This document shows positions 2,120 through 7,153 of a stretch of 64,000 nucleotides of DNA, in pieces. Origin of the DNA: Reyranella aquatilis (GTDB taxonomy: Bacteria > Pseudomonadota > Alphaproteobacteria > Reyranellales > Reyranellaceae); contig NZ_JAJISD010000001.1 of the NCBI RefSeq assembly GCF_020880995.1, positions 620,001 to 684,000 of the forward strand, in the 5' to 3' direction. Numbering within the stretch: the first letter of the stretch is position 1; each line of letters starts with the position of its first letter. The notes below the pieces were generated by a model. The model was not told the DNA's origin and made no database searches. It was given only the letters and a program-made list of their open reading frames with translations. Made by a program: the position numbers and the translations under genes.

Positions 2120-3115
2120 TCAGCGCTCGACATCAACGGCGCGCCATTCGTGCGTGAGTTGGTCGAGCCTGGTCTTGATGTCGTTCGGCAGCGGTCCCTG
2201 CTCAGCCGCGGCGAAACTGTCGGCGAGCTGCTCGGGCTTCGACGCGCCGATGATCGGCGCGGTGATCGCCTGGTTCGAAAGTGTCCAGCGCATTGCCATC
2301 ACCGCCATGCTCATGCCCGCCTCGACGGCGACACCGCGGATCGCCTCGATGGTCTCGAATTCGCGTTGGTGCCAGTAGCGCTCCTGGTAGCGTGCACCGG
2401 CCGTGCCGAACTGGAACCGCGAGCCGTCCGGCGGCGGGACCGCGCCGTTATACTTGCCGGTAAGGAGACCACCGGCCAGCGGATTGTAGGGAATCACCGC
2501 AATCCCCTCCTCCTCGCACAACGGCAGCAGATCGCGCTCGTAGCTGCGAAAAAGGAGATTGTACCGCGGCTGTACCGAATCGATGCGAGCGGTGTTCTTC
2601 ACCTCGGCGCGACCGATCCCGCGTGCCACCTTGTGCGCCGGCCAGTTGGAGACGCCGACATAGCGCGCCTTGCCCTGCCGCACGACCGTGTCGAGTGCGT
2701 CCATCGTCTCGTCGAGCGGCGTGTCCGGGTCGTAACGATGAAGCTGGTAGAGGTCGACATAGTCGGTGCCGAGCCGCTTCAGCGACGCCTCGATCGCTTC
2801 CAGCACGTGCTTGCGCGAGGTGCCCTGGTCCCAGGGGTTGCGCCCCATAGCCCCCGCGCACTTGGTGGCGATGACGTATTGATGACGCTTGCCCTTCAGC
2901 CAGTCGCCGACGATCTGCTCGGTGCGGCCCACCGTGTCGCGCCGGCCGCCCAGCGGGTACACATTGGCGGTGTCGAGGAAATTGATGCCGCCCGCCGCCG
3001 CGGCGTCGAGAATGGCATTGCTCTGCCCCGCATCGCATTGCAGGCCGAACGTCATCGTGCCGAGGCAGAGCTTCGAGACGCGTAGGCCGGTGCGGCCAAA
3101 CTTCGTATTCTGCAT
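2120..3115 (-). CDS. Aldo/keto reductase
   Basis: NADPH-dependent oxidoreductase of the aldo/keto reductase superfamily, 331 residues, cytosolic, acting on carbonyl compounds of unknown identity. Family signatures are LCLGTMTFG near the N terminus, FLDTANVYPLGG (catalytic Asp and Tyr), VIATKC (Lys), DLYQLHRYDPDTP (His), YVGVSNW and YNPLAGGLLTGKY. The start is the ATG at 3115 (MQNTKFGRTGLRVSK), preceded by GGGAGAG. The frame stays open far upstream, but that extension is antisense to the next gene and carries no family homology. It is divergent from the FAD protein. Confidence 0.93.
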   Translation of the reverse strand: MQNTKFGRTGLRVSKLCLGTMTFGLQCDAGQSNAILDAAAAGGINFLDTANVYPLGGRRDTVGRTEQIVGDWLKGKRHQYVIATKCAGAMGRNPWDQGTSRKHVLEAIEASLKRLGTDYVDLYQLHRYDPDTPLDETMDALDTVVRQGKARYVGVSNWPAHKVARGIGRAEVKNTARIDSVQPRYNLLFRSYERDLLPLCEEEGIAVIPYNPLAGGLLTGKYNGAVPPPDGSRFQFGTAGARYQERYWHQREFETIEAIRGVAVEAGMSMAVMAMRWTLSNQAITAPIIGASKPEQLADSFAAAEQGPLPNDIKTRLDQLTHEWRAVDVER

Positions 3116-3220
3116 GAGTCTCTCCCGGGCGTCCGTCACCACCGACGCGCCAGGCATCGTAACGGTGTCGGGCGCTGCCGATCCAGATCGCCCAGCGCCG
3201 AGGCGTCGCACCTCGATTGC

Positions 3221-4637: not shown

Positions 4638-5036
4638 ATGGGACGCGGACCTGCCAAGAAGCCAGCCAGACCGACCGGGAAATCCTCCCTGCATCTCCGG
4701 ATCGATTTCGGCAGTGAACGTTCGATCGGTCCGGGCAAAGTGCGATTGCTGGAGCTGATCAACGAGACCGGATCCATCTCGGCGGCCGGCCGCGCCCTCG
4801 CGATGTCCTACCGGCAGGCATGGCTCCTGGTCGACGAGATGAACCAGATGTTCCGCGATCCCGTGGTCGCCGCGCAGACAGGCGGCGGCGGTGGTGGCGG
4901 GACAACGGTGACCGAGACGGGCAACGACATCGTGCGGCTCTATCGCGAGATGGAGCGCCGTGCCTATGACGCCGCCTCATCGGAGATCCGATCGCTGGCC
5001 CGCCTGCTCACACCGCAGGACGGCAGCCCGCACTAG
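4638..5036 (+). CDS. ModE-like winged helix-turn-helix regulator (DNA-binding domain only)
   Basis: A 132-residue LysR/ModE-type winged HTH protein. The region KVRLLELINETGSISAAGRALAMSYRQAWLLVDEMNQMF matches the ModE N-terminal DNA-binding domain, followed by a Gly-rich wing (seven Gly in a row) and TVTETGNDIVRLYREMER. The C-terminal TOBE (molbindin) domains that bind molybdate in full-length ModE are absent, so the sensing mechanism is unknown. The convergent neighbour is modA, and a Mo-box-like palindrome lies upstream of modA, which supports a molybdenum-related role by context. There is no Shine-Dalgarno before the ATG. Confidence 0.85.
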   Translation: MGRGPAKKPARPTGKSSLHLRIDFGSERSIGPGKVRLLELINETGSISAAGRALAMSYRQAWLLVDEMNQMFRDPVVAAQTGGGGGGGTTVTETGNDIVRLYREMERRAYDAASSEIRSLARLLTPQDGSPH

Positions 5037-5075: not shown

Positions 5076-5099
5076 CTCTATGTCCTGCTGGATATAGGG
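5076..5099. promoter_or_regulatory. Degenerate Mo-box-like inverted repeat
   Basis: CTCTATGTCC (5076-5085), TGCT, GGATATAGGG (5090-5099): the same 10-4-10 geometry as the perfect palindrome at 5931, with 7/10 and 8/10 matching arm positions. It lies between the convergent ends of the ModE-like gene and modA. It could equally be a chance or terminator-like repeat. Confidence 0.3.
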
Positions 5100-5114: not shown

Positions 5115-5909
5115 CTAGTTCAGTACGGCGAAGCCCTGCCTTTCGAAGAAGGGCTTCGCAGCCGGCGACTTCAGATAGTCGACGAAGGCCTGCGCGTCCG
5201 GATTGGCCGAGGTCGACAGCAGCGCCATCGGATAGATGATCGCCGGATGCGAATCGGCTGGGAAAGCGCCGACGATGCGCACCGCCGGGTCGGAGGCCGC
5301 GTCGGTCCGGTAGACGATGCCGAGCGGCGCCTCTCCGCGCGAGACCAGGGTCAGTGCCATCCGGACGTTTTCGGCCTGCGCGACGCGGTCGGCGACCGAC
5401 GACCACACGCCGAGATACTCCAGCGCCGCCTTGCCGTACTTGCCCGCCGGCACCGCCTCGACGCTGCCCATCGCGAGCCGGCCGTCGCTGCCCAATGCAC
5501 CGCGCAGGTCGAAGCCCTTGCCGATCCTGAGATCGATCCTGGAATCCTTGCCGGCGATCAGGACGATCTGGTTGCCGAGATAGTCCGAGCGGCTGGCCGG
5601 CTTGATCAGCTTGCGTTCCGCGACATGGTCCATCCACGGCACGTCGGCCGAGATGAAGATGTCGGCGGGAATGCCCGCCTCGATCTGCCTGGCCAGCGCT
5701 GAACTCGCCGCGTAGGAGATTCTGGTCGTCTTGCCTGTCTTCCTCGCCCAGTCGGCCGAGGCCTCGTCCAGCGCGTTCTTGAGGCTGGCGGCAGCGAGGA
5801 CGACGACGTCCTTGCCCTGCGCCATCGCCTGATGAGCGATCCCCGCCGATGCCACGAACAAGGCGGTGAGCGTCGATACCAGTACGAATGTTCCGCGAAA
5901 GCGCAGCAT
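5115..5909 (-). CDS. modA: Molybdate ABC transporter substrate-binding protein
   Basis: Periplasmic receptor that captures molybdate (or tungstate) for ABC import. It has 264 residues from the ATG at 5909, which is preceded by a strong AAGGGAGG; the longer TTG start is disfavoured. A signal peptide (FVLVSTLTALFVASAGIAHQAMAQG) is followed by VVVLAAASLKNALDEASADWARKTG, SYAASSALARQIEAGIPADIFISADVPWMD, GDVEAV-type ligand segment (MGSVEAVPAGKYGKAAL) and GIVYRTDAA, all standard ModA landmarks. No modB or modC follows, so permease and ATPase must be encoded elsewhere. A perfect Mo-box-like palindrome sits 22 bp upstream. Confidence 0.95.
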   Translation of the reverse strand: MLRFRGTFVLVSTLTALFVASAGIAHQAMAQGKDVVVLAAASLKNALDEASADWARKTGKTTRISYAASSALARQIEAGIPADIFISADVPWMDHVAERKLIKPASRSDYLGNQIVLIAGKDSRIDLRIGKGFDLRGALGSDGRLAMGSVEAVPAGKYGKAALEYLGVWSSVADRVAQAENVRMALTLVSRGEAPLGIVYRTDAASDPAVRIVGAFPADSHPAIIYPMALLSTSANPDAQAFVDYLKSPAAKPFFERQGFAVLN

Positions 5910-5930
5910 GCCGCCTCCCTTGCACAAGGG

Positions 5931-5954
5931 CGCTATATCTCATTAGATATAGCG
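5931..5954. promoter_or_regulatory. Mo-box-like operator upstream of modA
   Basis: Perfect inverted repeat: CGCTATATCT (5931-5940), spacer CATT, AGATATAGCG (5945-5954). It resembles the known ModE operator type (CG-TATAT-N-ATATA-CG) and lies just upstream of the modA Shine-Dalgarno, where bound protein would block transcription. Confidence 0.72.
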
Positions 5955-6097: not shown

Positions 6098-7153
6098 TCA
6101 GGCGGCGTAGCGGCTCTCCGACAGCGCCGGCCAGAGATCGTCCTTGCCGGCGCGGGCGAAGGACTGACCGATCTTCTCGCCCCAGAAGCTTTCGCTGCCG
6201 AAATCGCGGCGCCACACCCAGAGCCTGCGCGTGTAGTGATGCAGGATGTGCTCGTGGGTGAAACCCATCGCGCCCATCGACTGGTGCGAGATGGCGGCGA
6301 TCCGGTGCGCGAAGTCCGAACACTGGGTCTTGGCGGCGGCGATCGAGAAACTGCCACCATCGGCAAGGCCGCCCTCGTCGGCATCGCGCGCGGCCGCTTC
6401 CGCCGCGGCGATGGTCGCGGCGACGTAGCTCGCGAGTTCCGCCAGCATGTGCTGAACCGCCTGGAAGGTCGAGATCGGCCGGCCGAACTGCACGCGCTGC
6501 TTGCAGTATTCGGTCGCCGTCACCAGTACCTTGTCGGCGGCACCCGCCATCTGCATCGAGCGGGCGAGTGCCGCCAGTTCGAGCGCACGGTCGGCACTGA
6601 CCGTAGAGGCCGCCGAGAATTCCGGCGTGGCGCCGTCGAACGACACCGAACCATAGGGCTCGCCGGCATGGCTCGGCGCATCCTCGATCGTCGCCGCATC
6701 GCGGGGAACCACGACCAGCGTCGACTTGCCGCCCGTCGTCACGATCGACACGAAGCGTTCGGCGACGCCGGCGAACGGCACGCGCGCGACCTTGCCGCTC
6801 ACGCGTCCGCCCTGGAGGGACAGGTCTCCGAGCGCCAGTGTCGAGGGGCCGGTCGCGGGCTTGCCGCCGGCGGCGGCCACCAACAGGTTGGCCAGCGCTG
6901 TCTCGGCGACCGGCACGGGCACGGCGTGTTCGCCGGCCACGCGCAGCAGCGCCATCAGGTCGGCAAGCGTTCCACCGACACCTTCCAGTTCCTCCGGAAC
7001 GGCGATCAGCGGCAGGCCCATCTCCTCGATCTCCTTCCAGAGATCGGCGGGCCACACGCCCTTCTCGACGCCGTTGACGACGTCCTTGGCCGAACGCTCC
7101 GCGAAGAAGCGGGTGGCGGTCTCCAGCAGCATGTCACGGGTATCACGGTCCAT
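6098..7153 (-). CDS. Acyl-CoA dehydrogenase family protein (second subunit)
   Basis: A 351-residue flavin-dependent acyl-CoA dehydrogenase homologue. N-terminal helices (MLLETATRFFAERSAKDVV), LGLPLIAVPEELEGVGGTLADL-type segments and the C-terminal helical domain with ALARSMQMAGAADKVLVTATEYCKQRVQFGRPISTFQAVQHMLAE and HQSMGAMGFTHEHILHHYTRRLW are typical. It is shorter than standard family members and follows a second acyl-CoA dehydrogenase by 12 bp, like the paired genes that form heteromeric enzymes in steroid or branched acyl-CoA degradation. An AAGGAGG overlapping the upstream stop codon implies translational coupling. The substrate is unknown. Confidence 0.9.
   Translation of the reverse strand: MDRDTRDMLLETATRFFAERSAKDVVNGVEKGVWPADLWKEIEEMGLPLIAVPEELEGVGGTLADLMALLRVAGEHAVPVPVAETALANLLVAAAGGKPATGPSTLALGDLSLQGGRVSGKVARVPFAGVAERFVSIVTTGGKSTLVVVPRDAATIEDAPSHAGEPYGSVSFDGATPEFSAASTVSADRALELAALARSMQMAGAADKVLVTATEYCKQRVQFGRPISTFQAVQHMLAELASYVAATIAAAEAAARDADEGGLADGGSFSIAAAKTQCSDFAHRIAAISHQSMGAMGFTHEHILHHYTRRLWVWRRDFGSESFWGEKIGQSFARAGKDDLWPALSESRYAA

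Follow-up and report, generated by a model that had tools for sequence, protein, structure and literature searches.

How is a molybdate-binding protein gene controlled when it stands apart from the permease and ATPase genes of its transporter? The question is raised by a 24-bp palindrome in the 64-kb stretch of DNA analysed here (the window), which lies close to modA and to a gene for a ModE-like protein, in the following arrangement:

4638..5036, plus strand: ModE-like regulator of 132 aa with a single domain, convergent with modA
5076..5099, no strand assigned: second box, decayed, with 8/10 arm pairs and 3 mismatches against the strict pattern
5115..5909, minus strand: modA, molybdate-binding protein, 264 aa, without adjoining modB or modC
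5914..5921, minus strand: Shine-Dalgarno-like sequence AAGGGAGG ahead of the modA ATG
5931..5954, no strand assigned: Mo-box-like operator, perfect 10-4-10 inverted repeat

A predicted ModE operator ahead of an orphan modA

The palindrome reads CGCTATATCT-CATT-AGATATAGCG and, as the initial annotation had described, both of its 10-bp arms pair perfectly. Symmetry alone says little, because in this GC-rich window perfect 10-bp arms with a gap of 0-12 bp occur at 7 distinct places, as 13 nested hits. The letters themselves are more telling. The consensus of the ModE operator (Mo-box) is an inverted repeat of the kind CGnTATAT...ATATAnCG, and 5931-5954 is a repeat of that type, found upstream of molybdate genes and retained in relatives. 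A strict pattern (CGNTATATN8ATATANCG, at most one mismatch) was derived from this palindrome together with the ModE consensus; its fit to 5931-5954 is thus partly by construction, while its matches at modB and in related genomes are not. The strict pattern has one match in the window and none in any of 100 shuffles, and over the whole genome (6,003,452 bases) it occurs at two places, ahead of modA and ahead of modB, against none for the backward control, which bears out the ModE-operator flavour noticed earlier. A loose pattern with up to two mismatches was dropped in favour of the strict one, since its 46 places genome-wide against 42 in the control amount to noise. The rarity beyond chance lies in the match to the Mo-box letters, not in the symmetry, and the palindrome, which is real, looks like a predicted ModE-type operator.

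The modA gene lies on the minus strand with its ATG at 5909, so that the operator is upstream of it, separated from the start codon by a gap of 21 bp and just before modA as first reported; a sigma-70-like promoter was looked for ahead of modA and none was found. The encoded protein passes the curated ModA models (NF007958, 255.1 against a cut-off of 253; TIGR01256, 185.9 against 62.5) and matches 15 PDB sequences, the best being 2h5y. Neither modB nor modC was found at the locus, again in agreement with the initial annotation, and the contiguous modA, modB and modC of a standard operon are not seen in this genome, where modA lies on contig C1 and modBC on contig C4.

A ModE-like regulator with a DNA-binding domain only

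The ModE-like protein, encoded next to modA and the sole ModE-domain match of this genome, matches the ModE DNA-binding domain alone over its 132 aa, as had been claimed, and so falls in the single-domain class (ModES); the C-terminal molybdate-binding TOBE/Mop domain of full-length ModE is absent from it. Against TIGR00637 it scores 90.7 bits, under the cut-off of 98.5. Its best solved relative is PDB 2ijl (135 aa, 5.9e-30), which we take to be an Agrobacterium protein, and the full-length ModE entries 1b9m and 1o7l rank behind this and match over residues 30-116 of the regulator. Sensing through a separate Mop protein or a second ModE was considered, and none was recognised in the genome, whose ModE-domain match is single and whose five TOBE matches comprise one at ModC and four in further open frames, 359-746 aa long.

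Because the only ModE of the genome is without a molybdate-binding domain, what it responds to may be the status of the cofactor and not molybdate itself. The single-domain ModE of Agrobacterium tumefaciens (ModES; Hoffmann et al. 2016) reportedly consists of the DNA-binding domain alone, about 130 aa in length, and its activity is said to depend on the molybdenum cofactor. With 16 MoCoBD_2 matches, of which the last two are probably one protein, the genome has many molybdenum hydroxylases to supply. Autoregulation of modE was also considered and rejected: of 20 modE sequences, 6 have a box within 150 bp; these 6 represent 3 genomes, and in them the box is common to modE and a divergently oriented aldehyde dehydrogenase gene. 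The remaining 14 have none.

The other half of the transporter

On contig C4, modB and modC directly follow msrQ (MsrQ score 122.9, just below the cut-off of 130), which encodes a partner subunit of a molybdoenzyme, and both ModB and ModC pass their respective curated cut-offs. A search for other copies of the repeat, especially upstream of modBC, had been proposed as a check, and the second strict box of the genome does lie there, 22 bp ahead of modB and inside the last msrQ codons (in L051, the modBC operator embedded in the terminal msrQ codons is at 6843-6875). Thus the earlier suggestion of control split from the transporter stands only in part: modBC has a box of its own, so control does not appear to be split off, and it is the transporter itself that is divided, modA from modBC, with a predicted operator at each half. 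As both halves are boxed, they are probably still controlled together.

From these sequence features, we consider it very likely that 5931-5954 is a ModE-type operator which the neighbouring single-domain ModE probably binds to repress modA, the same repressor probably tuning modBC. With molybdenum or its cofactor in ample supply, the single-domain ModE would bind 5931-5954 and repress modA, and, through the weaker operator copy in the last msrQ codons, one repressor would probably tune both halves of the importer.

This account presumes that the orphan ModA works with ModBC, as we infer. It could instead serve another oxyanion or another permease, its box being inherited baggage, in keeping with the distance of modBC from the locus and with a genome in which the ModB model has 53 matches of permease-like character. 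Only one of those matches is above the cut-off, however, the protein passes curated molybdate models while the sole other ModA match of the genome is weak (26% identity), and modA and modB are both boxed, all of which makes this alternative very improbable.

Conservation of the operator in Reyranella and beyond

By the loci of named records the relatives belong to Reyranella, R. massiliensis 521 and Enhydrobacter aerosaccus ATCC 27094 being among them. The sample of the genus comprised 61 genomes, including that of the window, and in 58 of these there is a ModA match with E no higher than 0.001, weak in a few cases. Two layouts are seen. In the first (8 regions, L063-L070), modA, modB, modC and modE form an operon with a box before modA, and msrQ is directly upstream in 7 of the 8 regions and some 2.7 kb more distant in L064. 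In the second, modA and modE are apart from msrQ-modBC, as in the genome of the window. The 30 modB loci examined divide into 24 split and 6 operon loci, counting as split the genome G013 (6% contamination), in which a split-type modB occurs together with an operon-type one.

With start codons chosen by script (doubtful in L134, L138, L139 and L140), a box with at most one mismatch precedes modA at 20/20 split loci (the window and 19 relatives) and at 7 of 8 operon loci, the eighth having two mismatches, and it precedes modB at all 24 split loci, the genome of the window included. The box is therefore not absent upstream of modA in relatives, an absence that had been named as the outcome that would undo the initial annotation. 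Per column, the modA box carries 1.50 bits across the split loci and its flanks 0.35 and 0.31. The modB box, with one mismatch in 24/24 sequences and 7/10 arm pairs, carries 1.81 bits per column against 1.60 and 1.45 in the flanks, but this conservation proves little because the box lies within msrQ coding sequence and its flanks are conserved almost as well. In a set of 16 genomes, the strict pattern gave 55 sites against 4 in the control, with a site in 15 of them and none in G058, and the box was found neither at the neighbouring acyl-CoA dehydrogenase gene (0/15, one more sequence being too near an edge) nor at that of the FAD protein (0/9).

That 5931-5954 might be a chance palindrome without a regulatory role would accord with the 7 window places that have perfect 10-bp arms. 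It is hardly credible in view of the two genome-wide matches to the strict pattern, a control and 100 shuffles without any, and a modA box kept at every split locus between unconserved flanks.

Outside the genus, 28 loci of the class were examined, of 94 genomes with a match. Twelve of the 28 have no full modB on a locus that reaches up to 1.5 kb either side of modA, some of these loci being short and a partial modB lying at the edge of one (L198). Among these twelve, L178, L179, L183 and L185 have an upstream box with at most one mismatch, and the boxed orphan modA is therefore not unique to Reyranella. Within the genus, the pair of genomes G011 and G038 has a second, divergent ModA (L128, 4629-5426; L129, 44-571) with a Mo-box upstream in each, the pair being 40-41% identical to the ModA of the window.

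History of the split

The split layout looks derived, the other layout of this genus being msrQ-[box]-modA-modB-modC-modE. In the ModB tree the Reyranella sequences make up a single group (100/96), with split and operon sequences interspersed, and one operon sequence (G048, 7% contamination) falls inside a split group. The ModA tree is different: the 20 split sequences join (97/94) G245, which belongs to another genus of the family and has a normal modABC; the 8 operon sequences form a separate group (100/99). Because the two trees disagree, the orphan ModA is probably not simply a relocated copy from the operon.

A rearrangement that moved the operon's own modA and modE would explain why both genes are absent from the msrQ-modBC place in split regions and lie side by side elsewhere. 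Relocation is nevertheless unlikely, as the split ModA groups with another genus and apart from operon ModA while ModB of both layouts falls in one group, and the best operon-type matches to the window are only 57-65% identical for ModA against 81-88% for ModB. We read the trees and gene orders instead as an ancestral operon from which modA and modE would have been lost in the split lineages, with a different modA/modE pair, which has a predicted operator of its own, now serving; more than one such event is possible.

A decayed second box and gene X

The site at 5076-5099 corresponds to the operator of a gene, X, in relatives, and 18 of its 24 bases are as in L053. The match alone is within chance (the loose pattern is expected in the window at a mean of 0.48), so that the case for this site rests on its position and alignment; in L052, the box at the homologous place is even more decayed. 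Nine of the 20 split regions (L053-L056, L058-L062) have gene X, with a box of its own, in the interval from modE to modA; X was not found in the window, L052, L057 or L133-L140. It is present in 12 of the 61 genus genomes, not including that of the window, and among named genomes in 11 loci, close relatives only, 10 of which are labelled Reyranella, Enhydrobacter or uncultured Alphaproteobacteria/Rhodospirillales and one only Proteobacteria. A box (at most one mismatch, within 150 bp) precedes X in 15/15 sequences from 12 genomes, leaving out the seemingly frame-broken Enhydrobacter copy, which is preceded by boxes too; this X of Enhydrobacter aerosaccus (L170, 8001-8340) is in two frames, as if frameshifted. 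The window holds an internal contrast, of an intact modA box next to the decaying box of a lost gene.

X is a small protein which, with companions Y and Z, is seen in L053-L056, L058-L062, L124, L126, L169 and L170. None of the three has a Pfam match above cut-off (best E 0.094 for X, none for Y, 0.027 for Z) or any match in NCBIfam, and the mean AlphaFold pLDDT is 51.6 for X and 58.1 for Y. Y and Z are related (97%); relatedness of X to Y (0.6%) or to Z (6.7%) is not supported. Z has no box in 3 sequences with the listed start, and its true start may lie further in, because the listed start overlaps the box in L053 and L056. In L056 (12281-12623), an ArsR-family regulator gene with a two-mismatch box upstream lies beside Z and an aldehyde dehydrogenase gene.

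Boxed aldehyde dehydrogenases and possible molybdenum sparing

Under the same limits (at most one mismatch, within 150 bp), a box precedes aldehyde dehydrogenase genes of type 1 in 10 of 13 sequences and of type 2 in 7/7, from 4 genomes. Paralogs of type 1 at 58-63% identity served as a control and have no box (0/7); of the 22 sequences in the type 1 control run 8 are boxed, all of them at 36-40% identity and belonging to type 2 or 3 genes of boxed loci. The boxed enzymes of the relatives are Aldedh-family proteins, and such enzymes use NAD(P) and no molybdenum. Mo-boxes stand immediately upstream of these genes, single or in tandem, at L060 (8974-12035), L127 (6721-11019) and L124 (1-1500). 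A close type 1 enzyme is absent from the genome of the window, where no match reaches E 1e-150. In the window, an aldo/keto reductase gene (2120-3130, minus strand) lies between genes for a TctC-type receptor and the FAD protein, in the slot taken by a boxed aldehyde dehydrogenase in L053 and L056.

Boxes at metal-free Aldedh genes therefore lead to a molybdenum-sparing hypothesis, by analogy with the repression of anfA by MopA and MopB, and suggest an arm of the regulon that the genome of the window would have lost. Tentatively, and with somewhat more doubt than conviction, we propose a sparing switch in Reyranella, in which cofactor shortage would lead the single-domain ModE to derepress modA, modBC, X and NAD(P) aldehyde dehydrogenases replacing molybdenum hydroxylases, the genome of the window having shed this sparing arm, left the decayed 5076-5099 behind, and kept the uptake arm only. 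In the wider regulon of the relatives, molybdenum enzymes would be exchanged for metal-free ones by way of a ModE that has no metal-binding domain; this makes a testable case, in which the cue of such a ModE can be tested directly.

Comparison with known systems

A search of open-licence papers, to which the common word 'mode' adds noise, found nothing on this arrangement. It varies a known system, in that an ABC importer has its binding-protein gene apart from its membrane and ATPase genes, with operators of one kind kept at both. As in Escherichia coli ModE/modABC, a Mo-box-like operator precedes a molybdate uptake gene and the DNA-binding domain of the regulator is homologous, whereas here ModE is without the C-terminal molybdate-binding domain and modA is apart from modBC, with two operators. 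The regulator architecture is shared with ModES of Agrobacterium tumefaciens, at a similar length and with 2ijl as the nearest solved relative; there, however, modABC is reportedly a single operon, and here it is split.

The regulon of the relatives may in turn be compared with that of Rhodobacter capsulatus, since in both a substitute for a molybdenum enzyme is, or would be, under molybdenum control. In that bacterium, according to the literature consulted (among PMC11975290, PMC7294313, PMC10174112 and PMC13259868), MopA and MopB repress anfA, of the alternative nitrogenase, when molybdate is present. The Reyranella candidates, in contrast, are aldehyde dehydrogenases with a putative role in sparing, which have no close match in the genome of the window.
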